A DNA stretch of 64,000 bases from Malania oleifera (taxonomy: Eukaryota; Streptophyta; Magnoliopsida; Santalales; Ximeniaceae): NCBI RefSeq assembly GCF_029873635.1, contig NC_080418.1:10058062-10122061 (forward strand), read 5' to 3'. The notes under the pieces were generated by a model. That model was given only the letters and a program-made list of their open reading frames with translations. It was not told the DNA's origin and did no database searches. How positions within the stretch are numbered: the stretch's first letter is position 1; every line of letters begins with the position of its first letter. Shown here one piece after another: positions 2,011 to 59,304 of this stretch. Position numbers and translations under genes: made by a program.

Positions 2011-2367
2011 TCAAGATCAAAAAGAAAGAGATGAGAATCATGCAGTATGCTTAAACCAATAATCAAAATAAGAATCAAAATTTAAAATTAAATTACCTGC
2101 TCCGCCATTGAGGTTTTGATGTACCATGGTGCAACAGCATTACTCCTGATATTGTCTTCGGCCCATTCACATGCCAACTTTTTTGTAAGTTGGTTAATTG
2201 CTCCTAAAAAGAAATCAGGACCTTTTAGTGTCAAACTCTTCAAGCCTACAAACTGTACACACAAGCAATGAACAGCAAAATTTCTAATTACCTTTAGTTG
2301 CTCCATAAACAGACACAGACTTCAATGACACGAAACCAGAGACTGAGGAGGTGAATACAACACTTCC

Positions 2368-2449
2368 TGTTGCGTGTAATTCCAGCTGATTGCTAATTCT
2401 ATTTTCAGATTTTGATTAATTCCAAATCAGCCCCAATAACACCTAAACA
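2368..2449. repeat. 82-bp terminal inverted arm of the copia element (partner 6,700-6,781)
   Basis: This segment starts TGTTGCGTG and equals, base for base, the reverse complement of 6,700-6,781, the 3' end of the right LTR, which ends CGCAACA. It directly abuts the primer site at 2,451, where the end of a normal 5' LTR would be in the opposite orientation. Confidence 0.95.
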
Positions 2450-5400
2450 AGTGGTATCAGAGCCTGACTATGTGATGGGGTCCGCTAGGTTTGAAATAGA
2501 AAAATTCACCGGTAAGAATGACTTTGGTTTGTGGAGGATTAAGATGTGTGCCATCTTGATACAGCAGGGGCTTGAGGAGGCTCTTCTTGGAGAAAAGAAG
2601 GGAGCATCCACTTCACAAGAGGGGAAACAAGATTTTCCCTCCACCGAAAAAATGAAGCCCGAAATTCTTCAAAAGGCACATAGTGCCATTATCTTGTCCT
2701 TAGGAGACAAAGTGCTTAGGGAAGTTGCTAATGAGGATACGGCAGCTGGAGTGTGGTCAAAACTAGAGAGTTTGTACATGACAAAATCCCTAGCAAATAG
2801 ACTCCATAAGAAGACTAGACTCTACACCTTTAGAATGACCCCTGGAACATCGATTGATGAACATTTAGATGAATTTAATAAAATTCTTTTGGATCTTGCT
2901 AATATTGATATTAGTATAGATGAAGAAGACCAGGCAATTCTTTTATTGAGTTCTCTTGATTCCACATATGACCATATTAAAGAAACTATGATGTATGGGA
3001 GAGAGAGGCTGACTTTAGAAGATGTGCAAGCCGTTTTGCACTCTAGGGAATTGCACACTAAGTTTGAGTCTAAATTAGAGTCAGGGGCAGGGTTAAATGT
3101 GAGAGGTAGGTCTGAAAAGAGGAACGAGAAAGGAAAAGACAAGAGGTCTAGATCAAAATCTAAGAGCAAGGCACTAAAGTGTTATGCATGTCACAAGGAA
3201 GGACATTTTAGGAGGGATTGCCCTGAGAGGAAAAATGGTGCAAATGTCACCACCTCTGAATCAAAGGGTAAGGCAGCTGTAGTTTTAGATGGGTATGATA
3301 GTGCGGAAGTGTTGAATGTCTCTGATAGAGATTCGGGAAAAGAATGGATATTAGATTCAGGTTGTTCCTTCCACATGTGTCCATTGAAAAACTGGTTTGA
3401 GTCCTTTGCATGCTTAGAAGGAGGTCATGTTATCCTAGGAAACAATAAGTCATGTAAAATACAGGGTATAGGGACTGTGAGACTTTTAATGCATGATGGG
3501 ATGGAGAGAGTGCTAAGAGATGTGAGGTACATACCTGAGCTGAAGAGAAATTTGATTTCTCTTGGTATCTTAGATAAGACAGGGTACACGTTTAAGTCTG
3601 AAGGAGGTAGCCTAAGAGTTTGTAGAGGTTCACTGGTAGTGATGAAAGGGGTGCTAAAGAATGGGTTGTATACCTTGGTAGGAAAGACAGTGATGGGTGA
3701 GGCTTCACCTATCAATCACAGGGTAGAAAATTAGGTTTCCTTGTGGCATAGTAGGCTAGGACATGTTAGCCTACAGGGCCTAAAGGAGCTGGAGAAACAG
3801 GGGCTCCTTGGAGATAGGAAACTTGAGGAATTGTCATTCTGTGAGGAGTGTGTCTTGTGTAAGTCCACTAGGGTTAGTTTTAAGAAGTCCACTCACACCA
3901 CAAAATTAGACTCTTGATTACATACATTCAGACTGTTAGACACTCTGATACCAGTGACCCGCAGCTTGAGGTGGAGCAACCCTCCACTTCACATAGCCAT
4001 TTAGAAACAGATGCTGCAGTTTTTGAGGAGCAAAACTCAGAAACGGAAACCTCTGATTTAAGTAAAACTTACCTTCTAGCACGGGATAGGGAGAGGAGGG
4101 TCATAAGACCTCCTCAAAGGTATGGGGAAGCTGATATGATAGCGTTTGCTCTTTCTGTTGCTGAAACAGAAATTGAGGTGGAGCCTAGGACTTTTAGAGA
4201 GGCCATGGATAGTAAAGAGGCTGAAAAATGGATTCTTGCAATGCAAGAAGAAATGGAGTCTCTAAACAAGAATGAGACATGGGTGATGGTATCTAGACCA
4301 GAAAAACAAAAACTCATAGGATCCAAGTGGATCTTTAAGAGGAAAGAGGGAATCCCTGGAGTTGAACCACCTAGGTATAAAGCTAGGTTAGTGGCTAAGG
4401 GATTTACTCAAAGGGAAGGGGTAGACTATAATGAAATATTTTCCCCTGTTGTGAGGCATAGTTCTATTATCCTTTGTTGCTGTACATGACTTGCATTTGG
4501 AACAACTTGATGTTAAAACTGCTTTCTTGCATGGTACTTTGGAAGAAATAATTTATATGCAACCTCCTGAGGGCTTTGATACGGAAGTGAATAAAAATCA
4601 TGTATGTTTATTAAAGAAATCTTTATATGGGTTGAAACAGTCACCTAGACAATGGTATAAACGATTTGATTCTTACATGCTTCAAAATGATTTCTGTAGG
4701 AGCAATTATGATGGTTGTGTTTATTTTAAACCATGTGATAAATGTCATATATATTTGCTATTATATGTTGATGACATGTTGGTTGCTTGTCAAGACATGG
4801 ATATGTTAAATCAAGTTAAGTGTATGCTCAAATCTGAATTTGAAATGAAAGACTTAGGACCTGTTAAAAGAATACTTGGTATGGAAATAACTAGAGAAAG
4901 GAATAAAAAGCTTCTCTATTTGTCCCAAAAGTCTTATATTTCAAAAGTGTTAAAAAGATTTGGAATGAGTCATGTTAAATCTACTTCTATTCCTATTGCA
5001 TAGCATGTTAAGTTGTCTAGCAAACAGTCTCCTGAAACTGAAGATGAATCACTGTTTATGAATAGAATACCTTATGCTAGTATGGTTGGTAGTGTAATGT
5101 ATGCTATGGTATGTTCTAGACCTGATCTATCTTATGCTGTAAGTCAAGTGAGTAGATTTATGAGCAAACCTGGAAAACCACATTGGCATGCTTTGAAACA
5201 AATTTTTCAATACTTGTCTGGAACAAAACAGCAAGGATTAATATTTGGTAAAAAGGATATGCATTGTGAAATAGGGTTAAAAGGATATGTAGATTCTGAC
5301 TATGCTGGAAATCTAGATACTAGGAAATCTTTGTCTGGTATGGTCTTTTGTTTTTTAGGTAGTGCTATTAGTTGGAAATCTCACATGCAGTCGGTGGTAG

Positions 5401-5816
5401 CCTTGTCTACCACGGAGGCTGAATATATTGCCATGACTGAAGCCTTTAAGGAGGCTATATGGATAAAAGGACTATGCCTAGACTTAGGAATGTATAGTGG
5501 AGCCGTTACAATTTATTGTGACAATCAAAGCACTATTCATTTGGCTAGGAATCATGTTTATCATGATAGGTCCAAACATATAGATGTTAGGTTGCATTTT
5601 GTGAGAGATATTATTTCTAGTGGAGAAATAGAAGTAAGAAAAATTCCAACGGAAGACAATCCTTCGGATATGATGACTAAAGCAGTACCTAAATCCAAGT
5701 TTGAACATTGTTCGAACTTGGTTAACCTTGGAAGCTGTTAGTATTTTGTTTTGCAGGAATCGCCATGGGAGATGCTAAGGAGGTGCAAGGGTTACAAGCT
5801 TGCCAAGGTGGAGAAT

Positions 5817-6781
5817 TGTTGGAGTGTCAAGGCTTGAAACAGAATCCAGGCTGTTCATTTCTTTACCCAAATCCAACGGCTGTTTTTTGTTTACTTTTGT
5901 TATAGGGGCAGTGATGTAATTTCCTGACATTAATTGTAAATGAATAAAAAACCACAACAGGGGGCGGGAGAAGAGAGATGAGGGAGCAGGAGCGCTGGAT
6001 CTAGGGAGGCGTCTTCGCAGCTTCAAGAAAAAATAGCAGCACAAGGGGGCTTCAGTTTATTTGCAGCAGCGCAGAAGGAGGAAATTAAAGATTTCCTGTT
6101 TGCAGCTTCAAAACCGAGAGGAGAGGTGTTCTCCTTTTCCCAGCCGCGAGTTCTTCCCAGCAGCAGGAGTCTTCCCAGCCGAGAGAGCACCTGCAGAACT
6201 GAAAGCCTTCAGCAACCGCGCGGGAGAGTGAGGCCGCACGGGAGAAGGAGCCGGCAGGAGGAGGTGCGGCGCTGGGTATCTCCAATCTCCAGTGGAGATT
6301 CACGCACTGGTAAGGGAAGGTAAAGACACATGTAGATTTAGTTTCTTGGGAGGGGTTTCTTGTAGGGAAATTAGGGAGAATAATAGGAAGAAACCTAGGG
6401 TTATTCGCAGGTGCGAAGGGTAGATTTCTTGGGTTGTTCTTGGGCTGATTTTCAGAAGAAATCGGTAAGACAAGAAAGGGTAAATCAGTGTGTACTTGTA
6501 TTTATTTTCACCGGTTTTATATAGTATCTCTGGAGGTGAGTTTCTGCCGTGGATGTAGGCCAAGTTTTGGGCCGAACCACGTAAATGTGTTCTTGTGGAT
6601 TGTGCTTGTGACATGTTTATGCGTTGTTATATATTATTTGGTGAACATACATTTTTCTTGATCAGGCTTAGCACAGACGCGTCAAAATAAACAGGTTTAT
6701 GTTTAGGTGTTATTGGGGCTGATTTGGAATTAATCAAAATCTGAAAATAGAATTAGCAATCAGCTGGAATTACACGCAACA
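5817..6781 (+). repeat. Right LTR of the first copia element
   Basis: It begins TGTTGGAGTG just after the polypurine tract and ends CGCAACA next to the CTTCC target duplication. It contains a GTGGATGTAGGCC...GAACCACGTAAAT motif, shared with the solo LTR at 58,593-59,090 and typical of Tork-type copia LTRs. Confidence 0.9.
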
Positions 6782-6927
6782 CTTCCCATGCCTGATGCTT
6801 TCAGAAAAGGATATGCAAGTTGGCACATATGGAAAGAAGATTCAAAATTGGTCGACACGAGAGTAGAAACTTCTTCAGCCATGAATTCGACCATTGGTTT
6901 CGGTCTATTTGTCCCAACATTGTTTAT

Positions 6928-7534
6928 CTGCATATCCAAACATAATTGACAGCGCTCTTGTTAAGTTGAAAGGAAAAACAATTCTAAGGTAACCTAATGG
7001 AATTTAACCGAGATGTTAACAGATGCCCAAAAAAATAAAATAAAAATTGCATTCATATTTGTGAGCTTGGTGATGTAATACTATTAGTTAATGTTCATTC
7101 AGCCAAGATTACTTCTATCTCGAATATAAAAATGATAAATTTCAACTGCATGCATTAGTAAATTACTGGTAATATAAGCTGACTTTATGCCTCAAAAAAT
7201 TCCTTCAATGAATATACAAATTAAAATTTTCAGCCACAAGAAGCATATCATAAACTAAAGTAAACAAAGAATTTTTTTTAATTCTATTATAAAAAATTTG
7301 GATACAAAATTCTACCCTTAGTGCACATGAGCTTAAATTTTAGGAATCAGCAGTTAGGACATTGGAAGAGTCCCAACGGCACAGCCTGCTTAAATTTTAG
7401 GAATCAGCAGTTAGGACATTGGAAGAGTCCCAACGGCACAGCCTAGCAGCAAGAAAAACAAACATTTCATTGTTAAAGCTACTTACACTAGAGGGGTGGT
7501 GTTGGATCTCCCACAAAAATAAAATATAGCAGAT
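6928..7534. other. Start of the giant SDR intron 2 (no gene)
   Basis: AT-rich sequence between the exon 3 acceptor (AG at 6,928-6,929) and the second copia. It holds a 57-bp tandem duplication (7,331-7,444) and the copia target duplication CAGAT at 7,530-7,534. I see no coding signal. Confidence 0.6.
7331..7444. repeat. 57-bp unit in perfect tandem duplication
   Basis: Two adjacent copies (7,331-7,387 and 7,388-7,444), each beginning GCTTAAATTTTAGGAATCAG and ending GGCACAGCCT. Identity suggests a recent duplication. Confidence 0.9.
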
Positions 7535-13999: not shown

Positions 14000-14294
14000 T
14001 TAATAATAATAGACCCTAATGATTTTAGCATTGCAAGGATAGCCTAGAATAGTCAAAATGAGCAGTTGAACATTTAAAATGAAATATCGACTACAAGGAA
14101 CCTATACTTTCAACATTTGTAATGAAAATAGATAGGGCATGCCTGCTCTCTAGTTAGTCCCTGCCCATATATTTCAGTGCGCCTTTCCAAGGTGCAACTT
14201 GTCAAGTTAGACAAAATCTACAGGTATTATCGTGCCTATGGAATACAAGGGCTACTTTAATTTAAATTGCTCATAAAATATAAAATTGATTACA
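14000..14294. other. Short unique stretch between copia and gypsy elements
   Basis: About 295 bp of AT-rich DNA between the copia target duplication and that of the gypsy (TAATT, 14,295-14,299). No coding signal. It is presumably residual SDR intron 2. Confidence 0.5.
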
Positions 14295-14299
14295 TAATT

Positions 14300-15959
14300 T
14301 GCAGGAACCCAAATCAAGAAAAGAAAAAGAAAAGAATAGAGAAAGAAGAAGAAAAGAAGGAAAACGGTTGGGATAGGACCAAATCAGCAATGGTCTGAGG
14401 AACCTCAGGAAAATCATCGACGGTTTCAGCAGGGCCATGGTTTGGTAAGACCAAACCGTCGACAGTTTCAGAAATTTCAGGAAACTCTCCCCTCCCGGCT
14501 TGCCGTTCCTCGTCCTCGGCCAGTTAAGAAGCTACGGTTTCATTCTCCAAAGTTTAGCCTGTTTTTCAGGAACAGGTAAGGGGATTAGATTATGTCAGTT
14601 ATTTTTGAAATGTGAATCGATTAAATTGAAGTATACGGATACAAGAATACTATGTATGATTTTTCTGATTGAATCAAGCATATAAAAATGAGAGTTTTGG
14701 TATTTTATACGTATTTGGGAAAACTAAAGTGAGTGGGGTGATCATCTCCTTTTCCTGAAAAACATATGTATTCAGTTAAACTAAAACCTAGAGATGATCA
14801 TGCCTTTATTTTCAGCAAAATATATATTTTCCCGCGCATTTTAGTATATTATGATATATCACTCAAATCGTGTGGCATGAGAATGTTTATGGTTATTGCA
14901 TAATTAAACCTGATGATTTTTATGGTATTATACAGAATTATGAAATGACGATTTTTATACCGAATTATGATATGACGGGTTCTATACAGAATTATGAACA
15001 TGACAATTTTATACCAAGTTATGACATGACAGGTTTTATACGAATTTATGAAAATGAGATCATGTTACTATTTTTACTATGTAAATTATATATATGGTTT
15101 ATGAACCCTGAGGGACTAGCTCTTATGGAAGTTCAATACCGCAACTAGTGAAAGTGTTAGTGTAACCACACTGTAGTGGAAGCATAGGCCATGGGATAGT
15201 CGATTTGACCACGAAGAGTTGTTGTACCCCCCTGGAGTCCGAACCAAGCTCGGTAGGCAAATCGGACTTTTAGGCGAATATATTTAACTTAGCCGGGTGG
15301 TAGGCCAGCCATGGCTAAGTCCAATCTTTAGACCGCACAACCCGATCATGGAGGTTATTCATGTTGTTATATGATGGCCCAATAAGGAAGGTTCTCTATT
15401 CATATATGAAATTTATGAAAAATGGGCTATAATGAGTCGAAAGTATGTTATTAGGGAAATTATATATTTTCAATTATATAAGTGTGAGTACAATTTTCAA
15501 ATGTTTTTTAACCTATAGTTAAATATATGAATGTATTATAATCACACTAAAACTCATGTTAGCTACACATTGATGATAATCTAATCCGTCTTACTAAGAT
15601 GTGTCTCACCCCAATATCCAATTTATTTTTCAGGACCTACAAAGAATTGAGCCTAGCGTGCTACAAGGCTGGGTTTAGATTTTGTAGTATTGTAAGTGTA
15701 AGCGAGACACTTGTTTATCATGTTTTTGTTTTATTTTTGGATGTAATATATAACATGGATATAAATATGTGTAGCTGAGATGGTTTAGAACTCTGGTAAT
15801 GTGTTTGAGGTTTAATTATCTTCCGCTACATGTTTTATATGGAGTTATGGACAGGAACACCCGAGACCCCCTTTCGGATTCAGGTCATTATAATTATGGT
15901 ATCAGAGATATATGCATGGAATATTAGCACTCCGAGCCCACCAGGTTCGAGGCGCTACA
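14300..15959 (+). repeat. 5' LTR of the gypsy element
   Basis: It begins TGCAGGAACCC, ends GGCGCTACA, and is directly followed by the primer site. It is shorter (1,660 bp) than its partner (1,947 bp). Short GTCGAC-containing repeats lie near its start. Confidence 0.92.
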
Positions 15960-21900: not shown

Positions 21901-22398
21901 CATATGATGAAGTACCAGTTCAGATTCTAAACCGTAAGGAGCAAGAACTACGTAGTTGGTAAAAGTGTTCTAGCGTAATCACGCAGTTAAGGAAGCTTAA
22001 TGGAAATTAGAGGAGGAAATACGTCAGAGGTACCCACAGTTGTTCAACGAGGCCCAACGCTAGTCAGGTAAGGTTGACGGTTTAGGTAAGCGTTTGGTTT
22101 TTGAATATGAATTTGTTTAGAGCGGGTTTGTTAGTTTAAACTGTATGGTTCTGGTTTTAGGTTAAGAGTGGTTTTTGGGAGAATATTGATTTGCTACATG
22201 TAATCTCCCAGAAGCTTATATGTAACCACGGTATTCCTCCGCCATAAGTGAGGCTAATTAATAAACTTGAGACAGAGCCGCTATGTGGATGGCTACCGAC
22301 TCTTTCTAGAGTCGGGCAAACATTTTAGTAATTTCCATGTGTTGGTATAAGTGTCAGTCAATAATTTCGAGGACGAAATTTTTATAAAGAGAGGAAGA

Positions 22399-22656
22399 TG
22401 TAGGAACCCGAACCAAGAAAAGAAAAAGAAAAGAATAAAGAAAGAAGAAGAAAAGAAGGAAAACAGTTGGGCTAAGACCAAATCATCGACGGTTTAAGGA
22501 ACCTCAGGAAAACCATCAACAGTTTCAGCAGAGCCATGGTTTGATAAGACCAAACCGTTGACGATTTCAAAAATCTCAGGAAAACCGTCGACAGTTTCCC
22601 CCAGGCTGAGCTTACTTAAGTGAGAAGTAAGCTTAATTTTTTATAACTCTCATATT

Positions 22657-22716
<60 letters not shown>

Positions 22717-24345
22717 GGGTTTTAGAGTCTTTCTCTCTCCTCTCTCATCCACTCACGCGTCTCACTCTCTCCTAAGCTCATCCAGAGTCCCCTCTCACTC
22801 TCCGATCGTCTATCTCTCCTCCCGGCTTGCCGATCCTCGTCCTCGGCCAGTTAAGAGGCTAGGGTTTCGTTCTCCAAAGCCGTAGACAGTTTTTCAGGAA
22901 CAAATAATGGAATTAGATTATGTCAGTTATTTTTGAAATGTGAACCAATTAAACTGAAGTGAACGGATACAATAATACTATGTATGATTTTTCTGATTGA
23001 ATCAAGCATATGAAAATGAGGGCTTTGGTATTTTAAACGTATTTGGGAAAACTAAAGTGAGTGGGGTGATCATCTCCTTTTCCTGAAAAACATATATATT
23101 GAGTTAAACTAAAACCTAGAGATGATCATACCTTTATTTTCAGCAAAATATATATTTTCCTCTAGCAGTTTAGTATATTATGATATATCACTCAAATCGT
23201 GTGGCATGAGAATGTTTATGGTTATTGCATAATGAAACCTAATGGTATTTATGGTATTATACAGAATTATGAAATGACAATTTTTATATCAAATTATGAT
23301 ATGACAGGTTTTATACAGAATTATGAACATGACGATTTTATACCGAGATATGATATGACAGTTTTATACCGAATTATGAACATGACAGTTTGAGATATGA
23401 TATGACATGACGATTTTATACTGAGTTATGACATGACATGTTTTATACAAATTTATGAAAATGAGATCATGTTACTGTTTTTACTATGTAAATTATATAT
23501 GTGGTTTATGAACCTGAGGAACTAGCTCTTATGGAAGCTCGGTACTGCAGCTAGTGATAGTGTTAGTGTAGCCACACTGTAGTGGAAGTGCAGGTCATGG
23601 GATAGTCGATTTGACTGCGAAGGGTTGTTGTACCCCCTAGAGTCCGGACTAGGCTAGGTAGGCAAATCAGACTTACAGGTGAACATGTTTGACTTACCCT
23701 GGTGGTAGGCCAGCCATGGCTAAGTTCAGTATTCGAACCGTACAACCCGATCATGGGCATTATTCATGATGTTATATGATAACCCAATAAGGAAGGTTCT
23801 CTATTCATATATTTAATTTATGAAAAATGGGCTATAATAAGCCGAAAGTATGTTATCAGGGAAATTATATATTTTTAGTTATATTGGTGTGAGTATTGTT
23901 TTCAAATGCTTTTTCACCTACAGTTAAATATGTGAATGTATTATGATCATACTAAAACTCATGTTAGTCACACAATGATGATAATCTAATTCGTCTTACT
24001 GAAAAGTGTCTCACCCTAATATCCAATTTATTTTTCAAGACCTACAGGGATTCGAGTCTAGCGTGCTACAGGGCTGGGTTTAGATTTTGTAGTATTGTAG
24101 TGTAAGCGAGACACTGGTTTATCATGATTTTGGTTTATTTTGGGATGTAATATATAACATAGAGATAAATATGCGTAGCTAGGATAGTTTAGAGCTCTGA
24201 TAATGTGTTTGAGGTTTAATTATCTTCCACTGCATGTTTTATATGGAGTTATGGACAGGAACACCCAGGACCCCCTTTCGAGTTCAGGTCGTTATAATTA
24301 TGGTATCAGAGATATATGTATGGAAGATGGGTCCAGAGTGCTACA
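22399..24345 (+). repeat. 3' LTR of the gypsy element
   Basis: It begins TGTAGGAACCC after the purine tract, ends AGTGCTACA, and is followed by TAATT. It contains a CT-repeat run at about 22,662-22,712 that is not seen in the 5' LTR. Confidence 0.93.
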
Positions 24346-32300: not shown

Positions 32301-34552
32301 TAAGAGCAGAGGATATGACTAGACGAAAAAAGACGATTATTGTACCATCAGTTACCAACCCCACCCCAGAAAAAGCTAATGTGAGGGTTTGATGTATTGA
32401 GTCAGAAGTTCGTGAGTGCATCAATATCACGTAATAGCTCCACAACATCAAAATCGGGATGGACCTGAAGATTTGTGTGGAAATAGTGGAAAGGAATCAT
32501 CAGGCATTCATTACATCTATATCCATGTGAACCCTTTTGAAAAGGATTAAGGCCACCAAAGGAAATATGCGAGTTGGTTAAGATTGTGGATAAGTATATA
32601 GTGGACTGAGGGTAGATTTTAACATCTCAGATGATGGGTTTTGAGCTTTACAACAGTTATGTGTCCCCAATGATACTGAAATTAAAGAACCATTCTGGAA
32701 GGGGGCACAAATCCGCTAGTTTCCGTACATCCAGCGAGCACAGGATGTACCATGATTTTACAAGATCTTTCTGGTGGATAACATGAAGAAGAGAAATCGC
32801 CCATTCATGAAGTAATGCTAACATGTCGCAATAAAGGTTAGCATTAGCAACCAGAAGGACCATTGCAAACCACTTCACATTCCTGAGTGGAAATGGGGGA
32901 GTACATTGCATGGACTCTCCGGATGTACTACGCCAGCACTTCAATAGGCAAAACGCCATCTGGGTAGTTGTTGAACCGACTGACAAAGCTTGTCCAGTCG
33001 TTTTCCGATTAAAGTAACTTTCCTTAATAGACTGACAAAGTTATATGTTTCAGGAGTAGTTTAAGCTCCCCACGTACCTGTGTCCCCATCAATTCATTCC
33101 AGATCCATGGTTCACCTCCAGTTTTGGGGAAGAGTTTGCAAAATTTGTACTAACTGACCTTAAGTACAAGCTGTTTCACCCGCAGTATTGATGGAAAGTC
33201 CAACAGAACAATTCATATATTAGAAGATTTTTGTGAGCTGTGTATATAGATTTCGAAGGTAGTTGGATTCAGTATTTTGCCACTGTCGATTCGCCTACAA
33301 CAATAGTTATCAGGGCCAGTTTGAGATGACACCGTATAAAGCATTATATGGTCCCGGAGTGTCAATTCCATTGTATTGGGATCAGCTTGGTGAACGATGA
33401 TTTTGGGGATAGAAAATTATAACCGCATACTTCTTATAACATCACACTCATTAGGGAAGAAATTAAAATTAAAACAGCTCAGAGTTGAAAAAAAGTTGTG
33501 TGATCTTCGCCGACGAGAGCTAGAGTTTGAGGTAGGAGATAAGGATATTATTAGGATTGCTCCGATGAAAGGAGTTATAAGATTTTGGAATGAAAGGTAA
33601 GCTAAACCCTAGGTATATTGATTCATTCAGAGATATTGGAGAGGTTTGGTCCGATGCTTATAGGATAGTATTAACCCTCACATTGCCTAAGATCTTGACC
33701 GTGGTTTATGTTCTATGTTGAAAAAGTACGTCCCAATCTTTCACACACGTGAATAAGCTACGAGTCTTTGGAAGTCCAAAAGACATCTTAGCATATGATA
33801 GAGTACCATTCAAGATTCAACCGTAAGGGCAGAATACGTAGTTGGTAAAAGTTGTTCTAGCGAATCACGCAGTAGGAAGCTTAATGGAACATTAGGAGGA
33901 AATACGTCAAAAAGGAGGTAACCCCACAGTTGTTACGAGGAGTCCCAATCGCTAGTCAGGTAAGTTGGACGTTTAGGTAAGCAGTTTGTGTTTTTTGATA
34001 TGAATTTGGTTTAGAGCGGGTTTGTTAGTTTAAAACTGTATGGTTTCTGGTTTTTAGTTAAGAGTGGTTTTTGGGAGAATAATTGATTTGCGACATGTAA
34101 TCTCCCAGAGCTTATATGTGAACCACGTATTCCCTCCGCCATAGTGAGGCTTAATTACTACACTTGAGACGACCGCTATGTGGCTGCTACCTGACCTCTT
34201 TCTAGAGTCGGGCAAACCTGTTAGTAATTTCCCTGTGTGGGTATAAGTGTCAGTCAATAATTTCGATGACGAAATTTGTATAACGAGAGGAAGATGTAGG
34301 AACCCGAACCACGAAAAGGACTAGAAAAGAATAAAGAAAGAAGAAGAAAAGAAGGAAAACAGTTGGGCTAAGACCAAATCATCAACGGTTTAAGGAACCT
34401 CAGGAAAACCATCAACAGTTTCAGCAGAGCCCTGGTTTGATAAGACCAAACCGTTGACGATTTCAAAAATCTCAGGAAACCCGTCGACAGTTTCCCCCAG
34501 GCTGAGCTTACTTAAGTGAGAAGTAAGCTTAATTTTTTATAACTCTCATATT

Positions 34553-34612
<60 letters not shown>

Positions 34613-36245
34613 GGGGTTTAGAGTCTTTCTCTCTCCTCTCTCAACCCCTCACGCGTCTCACTCTCTAATAAGCTCATCCAGAGTCCCCCTCTCACTCCTC
34701 CCGATCGTCTATCTCTCCTCCCGGCTTGCCGATCCTCGTCCTCGGCCAGTTAAGAGGCTAGGGTTTCGTTCTCCAAAGCCGTAGACAGTTTTTCAGGAAC
34801 AAATAATGGAATTAGATTATGTCAGTTATTTTTGAAATGTGAACCAATTAAACTGAAGTAAACGGATACAATAATACTATGTATGATTTTTCTGATTGAA
34901 TCAAGCATATGAAAATGAGGGCTTTGGTATTTTAAACGTATTTGGGAAAACTAAAGTGAGTGGGGTGATCATCTCCTTTTCCTGAAAAAACATATATATT
35001 GAGTTAAACTAAAACCTAGAGATGATCATACCTTTATTTTCAGCAAAATATATATTTTCCTCTAGCAGTTTAGTATATTATGATATATCACTCAAATCGT
35101 GTGGCATGAGAATGTTTATGGTTATTGCATAATGAAACCTAATGGTATTTATGGTATTATACAGAATTATGAAATGACAATTTTTATATCAAATTATGAT
35201 ATGACAGGTTTTATACAGAATTATGAACATGACGATTTTATACCGAGATATGATATGACAGTTTTATACCGAATTATGAACATGACAGTTCGAGATATGA
35301 TATGACATGACGATTTTATACTGAGTTATGACATGACATGTTTTATACAAATTTATGAAAATGAGATCATGTTACTGTTTTTACTATGTAAATTATATAT
35401 GTGGTTTATGAACCTGAGGAACTAGCTCTTATGGAAGCTCGGTACTGCAGCTAGTGATAGTGTTAGTGTAGCCACACTGTAGTGGAAGTGCAGGTCATGG
35501 GATAGTCGATTTGACTGCGAAGGGTTGTTGTACCCCCTAGAGTCCGGACTAGGCTAGGTAGGCAAATCAGACTTACAGGTGAACATGTTTGACTTACCCT
35601 GGTGGTAGGCCAGCCATGGCTAAGTTCAGTATTCGAACCGTACAACCCGATCATGGGCATTATTCATGATGTTATATGATAACCCAATAAGGAAGGTTCT
35701 CTATTCATATATTTAATTTATGAAAAATGGGCTATAATAAGCCGAAAGTATGTTATCAGGGAAATTATATATTTTTAGTTATATTGGTGTGAGTATTGTT
35801 TTCAAATGCTTTTTCACCTACAGTTAAATATGTGAATGTATTATGATCATACTAAAACTCATGTTAGTCACACAATGATGATAATCTAATTCGTCTTACT
35901 GAAAAGTGTCTCACCCTAATATCCAATTTATTTTTCAAGACCTACAGGGATTCGAGTCTAGCGTGCTACAGGGCTGGGTTTAGATTTTGTAGTATTGTAG
36001 TGTAAGCGAGACACTGGTTTATCATGATTTTGGTTTATTTTGGGATGTAATATATAACATAGAGATAAATATGTGTAGCTAGGATAGTTTAGAACTCTGA
36101 TAATGTGTTTGAGGTTTAATTATCTTCCACTGCATGTTTTATATGGAGTTATGGACAGGAAAACCCAGGACCCCCTTTCGAGTTCAGGTCGTTATAATTA
36201 TGGTATCAGAGATATATGTATGGAAGATGGGTCCAGAGTGCTACA
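29398..36245 (+). mobile_element. Partial second copy of the gypsy element (copy B)
   Basis: Lacks the 5' LTR and most of gag because it starts at the duplication junction. It includes a copy of the hAT-like insert (about 29,898-30,889), remnants of RT, RNase H and integrase, and a 3' LTR at 34,295-36,245 followed by TAATT. Heavily broken in the indel-dense part; the LTR right of 34.7 kb is nearly identical to 22.8-24.3 kb. Confidence 0.85.
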
Positions 36246-56876: not shown

Positions 56877-59304
56877 TCACAGGAGGAAGCCATTCACAGA
56901 CATCCCTCCATCAACGGTAATAGTTTGTCCAGTTATATAAGAGGAGGCAGGGAGGCAGAGAAACGCCACCAAAGACGAGACTTCATTTGGCTGGCCAGGA
57001 CGCCCAAGAGGAGTTCGAGCCTTAAGTACTTTGAGAAATTCTGGCTCAGAAATCAACTGTTGAAGGAGAAAGGGAAAAAAAAAAATCAAATAAAAACGAT
57101 AGTAACAGCCCACTAATAACCTGGTTACACACACAAATTGATTAAAAAGAACTCAAATAAAAAGATGATGATATGAAGTATGGCCTACGATAGATTTAAA
57201 AGAAGGCATACATATAATTTGTCATAACAAATATAAAATGGATGTTTAAGTAACTGAAATTAGAACTATGAATGATAAATAAAGAGAGATGAACTAGTCT
57301 CATTCATCGTAAAATGATGAAAATAACTTCGCCCATAAGTAGAATATATATTCTAGCAAATGCTATTTAACTATTTTAAGTATCATGCACTTGTGTGTGC
57401 ACAAGTGCATCAAGCATGTAATCTAAGAACAAAAGCAAGTGATAAGAAAGTTACAGATTCAACAAGAGGCGTCTCAGTAAACCAAGGTGTGACAGAGTTG
57501 CTTCTAATATTATCCTTTGCCCATTCACATGCCAGATTTCTTGCCAGTTGGTTCGTAGCTCCTACATTCACACAACAAACAATTGATCGAAAGTTAAAAA
57601 TTAAGCGAGTGTTTCTGACGACTTAATTATAAACACACACCGATTTCTATTCAACATTAATTATATGTTTGGCTACTTTATTTTAACTGCTACTTACATA
57701 TATATGCTCTCATCCGTTAAACTCTTGAGTAATTAAAGATATTAATTAATAGAGTTAGAGAGCTCATTCTGAAAACCTAAGTATCAAGGAAAGAGAGTTA
57801 AAGAAGATCTTTACTAGCTTGAGACTGCCCATAAGGGAGATGTGAGATTGGACGCACACCAATAAATAGGTCATTTTTTAAAGTTAAAAACAAAAATTTA
57901 ACTCTAAAATTTCATTAGTACATAAGCTACATGACCCATGGCCTTGATCGAACTCCCAATAAGAAAAAGATTAAATTCTAATTAGATCTGGTGCATTAGT
58001 AACGTAAGTATATACGAAAAGTAGTAATTATAAGTTAACCTTTAGTTGCTCCATAAATAGAGCCAATATTAACAGCAAGGAGACCAGCAACAGAGGACAC
58101 GAACACTATGCTTGCTGCCCCGGATGCCTTTAAAAGAGGATGAGCAAGTTGGCACAAATGGTAGGCCGACTCGAAGTTCACACACATGACATTCGACATT
58201 TCTTCTGCTGTGTAATCCTCCGTTGGTTTCTTTATGTATTTTCCCACGTTGTTTATCTGCAAGCATGCAGACCCCATGCACGTGCGTACGTACACAATTA
58301 ATCATCTATAAATTAATTATAATGGAGGAACATACACAATATAAGATAATAGGTTGACTTAACAAGAATGTTGAGGTTGCCGCGGAACAAGGAAGTGGCG
58401 ATCTCCATGAGCTTGTGGCGTTGGGGCGGAGAGGAGACGTCGCAGACAGAACCGGTGACCGCGAAGCCTTTCTGCTTCCATTGGTGGAGACATGCGTTCA
58501 ACTCTACTTCGTTGCGGCAACAGGTGTGCACTGCCGCCCCTAGCCCCGCCAGCTCCTCCACCACTGCATGCCTGCAACATGTATGTACGTATTGTTAGGG
58601 TGTGGCTCGTATTGGTTAGGTAGCCGCACTACCCAGCAGCTTATGTTGATTTTGCTAGTCCTCCACCAAACTCTTCCTACCATGTTTGAAATTGCAGCCA
58701 CCTTTTATGACTTTTCTCCTTCCATTTGTGTATATATATATGTGATGTATATGTGTGTAATTATGTGTGGGCTTAGGGCCGTATTGTGTGCAACAGAGAG
58801 CTCTGTGTGTGTGCAGCAGAAAGCTGTGTGTGATGGCTGAGAGCCGCCTGTGTTGTAAAAGGCGTGTCTGTGTTGTGTGAGGCAGTGAATCCTAGCTTGT
58901 AGAGAGAGAGAGAGAGTTGAGTTGAGGGCAATAGCTTCCTCCGTCTCTTTGTAATTCTCCCAATTATAGTGGATTGCATGTGCTCCCGTGGATGTAGGTC
59001 ACTGTAGACCAAATCACGTAAATCTGGTCTTATATTTTTTGTTATGTAATTTTGCTTGTGTGATTGTTATTCATAGATCACTTTCCAACACGTACCTAAT
59101 TAACAGATACACACACAAACATATACACATATATATAAACAGATACAAAAACCTAATGGCAGAAGAAGAGGAAGAACAAGAAGAATTGAAGAAGAAAACG
59201 AGGAAGAGGAAGAAGAAGAAGAACCCGATTCCTTTGGTTCCGCCGGTGACCAGAGCATTCATTCCATTAAGAGACCATCTATTCTCTCTCGGCTTATCGT
59301 GAGC

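Follow-up and report, generated by a model that had tools for sequence, protein, structure and literature searches.

How does a retrotransposon come to be bounded on both sides by the same end of its long terminal repeat (LTR), in inverted orientation, and to lie within a proper target-site duplication? This question is raised by an element in the 64,000-nucleotide stretch of Malania oleifera DNA analysed here (C2:10058062-10122061, hereafter the window; the genome comprises 1.49 Gb in 510 contigs). A sequence-only reading of the window had described its segment 2,368-2,449 as the exact reverse complement of 6,700-6,781, with TGTTGCG...CGCAACA as the element's outer termini and CTTCC on either side. 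An inverted-repeat search and a script confirmed both statements: the arms are 82 nt long and 100% reverse-complementary, the inverted match ends at both element tips and at both inner edges, and the two copies of CTTCC are flush with the tips (Table 1). The arm pair was the sole inverted repeat reported between positions 1500 and 8000 (seed 12, minimum 20 nt). Four inverted repeats of at least 70 nt were reported in the window, which contains no runs of N, and no other of these is perfect. The right arm is the final 82 nt of a 965-nt 3′ LTR, which starts with TGTTGGAGTGTC, ends with TTACACGCAACA, and is preceded by the purine-rich AAGGTGGAGAAT. It is the only LTR of the element; the left tip consists of 82 nt of inverted U5, and a direct LTR pair is absent.

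Next to the left arm, from position 2450, AG is followed by TGGTATCAGAGC, which we take to be a primer-binding site of the initiator Met-tRNA type. The left arm thus abuts the primer site, as had been noted, but only 78 nt of the arm are unambiguous, the innermost four (AACA) also being the normal LTR end before AGTGG. Whereas the normal left junction reads ...CGCAACA-AG-TGGTATCAGAGC, that of the window copy reads ...CCTAAACA-AG-TGGTATCAGAGC, the common suffix being AACA. At the outer side, TGTTG would be present with a normal LTR start just as it is with an inverted LTR end. The normal junction occurs in the genome at 14 places without mismatch and at 266 with up to two, the arm-to-primer junction of the window copy at a single place without mismatch. 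The next among the matches listed (best 100 of 249 at up to three mismatches) differ from it at two positions and, to judge from their sequence, seem to be normal ends of other families.

Table 1. Features of the inverted-U5 element and of the interrupted host exon (positions in the window)
Feature	Position	Strand	Basis
Host dehydrogenase exon, part downstream of the insertion	2290..2367	-	tblastn of the joined exon peptide, joined frame
Left target-site duplication CTTCC	2363..2367	.	Same as 6782-6786; host exon restored when the flanks are joined
Inverted U5 arm (terminal 82 nt of the 3′ LTR, reverse-complemented)	2368..2449	-	100% complementary to 6700-6781
AG spacer and primer-binding site TGGTATCAGAGC	2450..2463	+	Sequence
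gag and start of pol (Retrotran_gag_2, zinc knuckle, Pol beta-barrel), ends at a stop	2475..3734	+	Pfam
GAG-pre-integrase fragment	3735..3917	+	Pfam
copia reverse transcriptase (RVT_2), split over two frames	3884..5003	+	Pfam
RNase H-like region (presumed)	5004..5741	+	ORF; without Pfam family match
Probable polypurine tract AAGGTGGAGAAT	5805..5816	+	Adjoins LTR start
Complete 3′ LTR, 965 nt, TGTTGGAGTG...TTACACGCAACA	5817..6781	+	Sequence
U5 end, its reverse complement being the left tip	6700..6781	+	Arm match
Right target-site duplication CTTCC	6782..6786	.	Script
Same host exon, part upstream of the insertion, and sequence before it	6787..6960	-	adh_short match, joined frame

The coding content identifies the element as Ty1/copia, with a copia-type gag (PF14223, 6.7e-33) and reverse transcriptase (RVT_2, PF07727, 6.9e-48). 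The region at 5004-5741, for which no Pfam family match was obtained, is presumably RNase H-like, judging by motifs of such domains, and no Pfam match to an integrase core was found in the element frames scanned. Spacings of ∼4.08-4.34 kb between LTR ends recur among same-strand pairs of relatives, and spacings of ∼5.0-5.1 kb are found in others. Since the shorter spacing recurs, a shared internal deletion is possible, and the window copy may represent an internally deleted form that depends on other elements for its integrase. Its 3′ LTR is 97.8% identical over 964 nt to that of a relative on the same contig (L044, C2:142.34 Mb). Three other readings were rejected: a DNA transposon with terminal inverted repeats, because the element encodes gag and reverse transcriptase and its exact junction occurs once in the genome; a replicating inverted-repeat subfamily, because of the same single occurrence of the arm-to-primer junction; and an ordinary nested insertion, because the arm is flush with the target duplication.

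At the insertion site, the element interrupts an exon of a minus-strand gene for a short-chain dehydrogenase, as identified via Pfam: a PF00106 (adh_short) match at 6763-6960 (E 2.5e-08) represents the piece upstream of the insertion, and PF13561 matches two pieces further downstream in the gene. When the element and one CTTCC are removed, an unbroken reading frame (...FLKASGMGSVVFTSSVSGFVSLKSVSVYGATKG) results. A paralogous dehydrogenase exon lacking the insertion lies in the same window (58038-58261, minus strand); over 224 nt it is 68% identical to the joined exon, and the alignment is free of gaps across the joint. The restored frame and the gap-free alignment show that the target duplication is real and that the insertion is clean on both sides. 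Elsewhere in the window, a perfect tandem duplication of 57 nt is found at 7331-7444, and three related segments (14201-15924, 22300-24328, and 34196-36228; ∼8.4 and 11.9 kb apart) are perhaps a tandem gene or repeat cluster.

How the other members of the family begin was determined with a 28-base pattern spanning the primer site to the gag start, which matched the genome at 263 places with up to three mismatches. The left sides of the best 100 of these were inspected, 70 with ∼1.5 kb and 30 with 420 bases upstream, using a 964-letter LTR as the BLAST query; the 163 places outside this set were those with two or three mismatches and any further ones with one. A forward LTR was present close to the primer site in 66 of the 70 longer left ends and in all 30 of the shorter ones, which marks the window copy as an aberrant descendant of the family. 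In the other four of the 70 (the window copy, L041, L091, and L097), no forward LTR match was found near the primer site. Within the best 100 of 263 places, one further left end showed the same anatomy at a different breakpoint; it is located on C8 (L104) and is counted among the 66 because it retains part of a forward LTR.

This second, independent copy spans G000:C8:36385512-36389957 including its target duplications. Its inverted U5 measures 50 nt (36385517-36385566) and is flush at the left tip from the outermost base; inside the arm follows a forward LTR, from ∼position 700 to the LTR end at 36385836, and then the primer site. The left tip is preceded by ATTGC, and the fetched 3′ LTR ends with ACACAACA, again followed by ATTGC. 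The LTR end plus ATTGC is found at 11 places in the genome with up to one mismatch, and the sole place without mismatch (C8:36389940-36389957) is on the same strand, 4.1 kb downstream. The left flank had thus served to predict the ATTGC on the right. Hence, both copies carry a 5-bp duplication flush with both tips, as is typical of integrase-type insertion (CTTCC in the window, ATTGC on C8). Over 276 aligned positions, 6 differences separate the left partial LTR of the C8 copy from its right LTR, which means that this insertion is not a very recent one; of the 50 positions of its arm, 1 is at variance with the left U5 and 2 with the right U5. At their boundary, the arm shares 6 nt (TTTAAT) with the forward LTR. 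The inner joints of the two copies therefore lie at different LTR positions, with microhomologies of 4 nt (AACA, window) and 6 nt (TTTAAT, C8). While the window case had been noticed because its arm is flush, the C8 copy came from a search for upstream inverted U5 of any kind, irrespective of flushness. A long inverted U5 was observed in two loci besides the window: that on C8 is flush with a target duplication, that in L097 is not.

Pattern scans of the genome were run at zero mismatches. A tip-to-primer distance of 45-105 returned the window copy only and one of 107-167 returned no match; from the tip to the LTR anchor CTGCCGTGGATGTAGGCC only the C8 copy was obtained, and to the anchor TTTCTTGATCAGGC nothing. 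These scans, which covered part of the possible distances, thus revealed no third inverted-U5 case. Palindromic arrangements (PBS′-U5′...U5-PBS) with gaps of 21-81 gave no match either, in a scan that cannot detect L097, whose primer-site letters differ from the pattern. Minus-strand matches of 14 nt (L110, L111) and 12 nt (L052, L087) were taken as chance. Other irregular arrangements were also seen. L097 (G000:C6:87102480-87104080) has the form of a fold-back, in which a forward LTR is followed by ∼440 nt of reversed gag, primer site, and U5, and then by forward U5, primer site, and gag; it could be a product of reverse transcription or of replication, and shows that fold-back products without tip symmetry also arise in this copia family. 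In L091 (G000:C5:77938140-77939740), which has no LTR match near the primer site upstream, a primer site directly follows the reverse complement of another (GGCTCTGATACCAA, then GTGGTATCAGAGCC). At G000:C13:25444852-25465366, five LTR ends on one strand are spaced ∼5108 bases apart, an arrangement suggestive of LTR-internal units in tandem.

During reverse transcription, minus-strand DNA begins with the U5 complement at the tRNA primer and, before the second transfer, ends at the primer site. The main steps of this scheme are also given in PMC9278108. We consider it probable that both copies arose when the left end of an incomplete cDNA was capped with U5 during this process, and that integrase then used two U5 ends. 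Minus-strand synthesis would have reached the primer site plus a few bases of U5, the left end never being normally completed. The unfinished 3′ end, or short U5 strong-stop DNA acting as a primer, would then have paired via AACA with minus-strand U5 DNA, and copying would have proceeded out to the 5′ terminus of the latter. The product of such a sequence of events would be double-stranded and would end on either side in a U5 tip that integrase can use; integrase could have trimmed and joined both tips as usual, leaving the 5-bp duplication. Trimming of two bases at both tips is suggested by the AG between LTR and primer site; the order of events and the identity of the template in this scheme are likewise reconstructed from the anatomy. 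The inner joint of the window copy coincides with the stopping point at the primer site plus AACA, that of the C8 copy lies ∼270 nt beyond this point. As the left tip ends where strong-stop DNA begins, arms that start at the outermost base in both copies, together with inner joints that vary, would be accounted for.

The exact tip-to-tip symmetry combined with a 5-bp duplication argues for a U5-capped cDNA, as does the host exon that is restored without gaps relative to its paralogue, and the notion that the U5/U5 cDNA existed before integration is strengthened by a second copy, which was joined at another breakpoint and has a target duplication of its own. The proposal of the sequence-only reading, that a linear cDNA with U5 at both tips was inserted, thus stands as the best explanation, although the argument given for it needs two corrections. 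Among the points against it, inverted-U5 cases number only two, and TGTTG tips are shared with the normal LTR start, so a template switch during replication could land at the tip.

The origin of the arms can be approached through single diagnostic bases. In the window copy, both arms have a C at position 36 of 82. Of 48 aligned rows, four are from this element and carry the C; the 44 non-self rows fall into 27 context groups, and the first row of each group has a T (fetched loci, at least 78 nt aligned). Grouping was by downstream context, which merges some left ends because the primer-site region is shared there. The window arm therefore shares a base private to its own LTR, which is compatible with self-copying, with an identical molecule as the source, or with later copying from the element's own LTR; to the extent that it fits such post-insertion copying equally well, it counts against a capped cDNA. 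The arm of the C8 copy has a C in CAGCTG, whereas both of its LTR ends have a T. In the other fetched loci, this site is C in 32 of 32 strict-pattern LTR ends, four of which belong to the window element; without these, it is C in 28 of 28 ends from 12 groups. LTR ends that do not fit the strict pattern include some with a T here (e.g., L067, L074, L077). This one site suggests that the C8 arm derives from a separate U5 DNA molecule rather than from later copying of its own LTR, and to this extent favors the capped cDNA; a back-mutation in the arm is possible as the source of its C.

A separate molecule would also be involved if the U5 ends of two cDNAs had co-integrated at one site and their free distal ends, a short or broken U5 piece and an incomplete left end, had been joined by microhomology end joining. 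The result would be the same anatomy, with a U5 tip on either side, duplication of 5 bp, and an inner joint with 4- to 6-nt microhomology, and a C8 arm unlike both LTRs of its element at one site is what a second molecule should leave behind. However, a second end-joining event is required at each locus, and the private base common to arm and LTR in the window means that the two molecules were near-identical there. We regard this route as unlikely.

Unlikely, too, is a normal insertion followed by a replication template switch of the four-point or break-induced type, in which synthesis left the element after TGTTG, copied 82 nt of the reverse-strand LTR end, and returned at AACA, the rest of the 5′ LTR being lost. 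Switches of this kind are documented in great apes (PMC7954356, the available text of which gives a median of 12 and a maximum of 128 for the inverted fragment), and microhomology exists at both joints of the window copy (TGTTG outside, AACA inside). Its arm carries the private base of its own LTR, and the L097 fold-back, which lacks tip symmetry, belongs to the same family. The sequence-only reading had objected that a later rearrangement would have to preserve both the duplication and the exact symmetry. This objection is too strong, as the shared TGTTG provides microhomology exactly there, and such an event is unlikely but possible. The tip-to-tip match is one of 1167 maximal matches of at least 5 nt (the LTR with 300 bases of flank and a further 30 bases, compared with the reversed LTR), a rough measure, because real switches need not choose evenly, and two independent loci hit the tip; in a near-identical count, about one-third of the matches were longer than 5. 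A loss of ∼880 nt is also needed in the window, and the C8 arm should carry the T of both its LTRs, which it does not. An assembly join or mis-scaffolding at 2368-2450 is very improbable, given that such an error would not be expected to give rise to a 5-bp duplication, an empty site that restores the frame, and another copy built in the same way.

If a U5-capped cDNA was indeed inserted at both loci, they are evidence from nature that two U5 ends suffice for a copia integrase to complete a paired insertion, and that copying of a U5 tip can rescue a failed left end. It is conceivable, and we propose it tentatively, that U5-capped insertions form a recurrent and overlooked class, in which strong-stop U5 caps unfinished left ends and integrase accepts two U5 tips. 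In that case, LTR elements could integrate as elements with terminal inverted repeats and be missed by direct-LTR finders. The signature, an inverted U5 followed by the primer site or a forward LTR inside a target duplication, is searchable; software relying on direct LTRs would probably miss it, and the class could be counted in any good plant assembly.

No plant LTR element with an inverted U5 tip was found in titles and the beginnings of abstracts, a search to which the subscription literature mostly does not belong; "LTR inversion" in one plant paper denotes only an index of assembly quality. The earlier statement that no standard class is known for such insertions has to be tempered, as comparable structures, HERV-K124 and template-switch complexes, are in print. 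Hughes and Coffin are said to have described, in 2002, a HERV-related element that resembles a DNA transposon. HERV-K124 (Shin et al, 2013, PMC3625200) contains short inverted partial LTRs (78 bp listed). Its authors propose that inversion of an LTR was combined with template switching and refer to Hughes and Coffin (2002; Genomics 80:453) for how an LTR might become inverted, but leave the mechanism unresolved. A short inverted partial LTR at a terminus is likewise found in the window copy, here at the 5′ tip and derived from U5, whereas HERV-K124, a human retrovirus, carries the inverted pieces internally and at its 3′ end, and has a second, truncated internal region.

Other systems resemble the window copy in single respects, as far as the available texts describe them. 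DIRS-1 is a retroelement bounded by inverted LTRs (PMC5633606), but there, inverted LTRs are regular and go along with a tyrosine recombinase and circular intermediates, whereas here a single aberrant copia copy has an integrase-type duplication. Twin priming of L1 also places an inverted piece, made during reverse transcription, inside a target duplication (PMC2837659), but it is target-primed, involves neither integrase nor LTR, and the inversion is not located at an integrase tip. Asymmetric LTRs are also known from HIV-1 proviruses (PMC9278108), where one defective LTR is explained by misplaced strand transfer, but the defects are deletions that start in the 3′ LTR and not an inverted U5 cap. 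In plants, Sabot and Schulman (2007, PMC1950507) deduced template switching from complexes of LTR retrotransposons inside a single 5-bp target duplication, and reported two such complexes, beside 20 recombinant ones, in ∼7 Mb of Triticeae sequence. Those complexes have three direct LTRs and two internal regions, whereas the window copy has one of each, having lost one LTR and gained an inverted U5 tip in its place. In both cases, abnormal template switching during reverse transcription is deduced from an odd anatomy within one 5-bp duplication.
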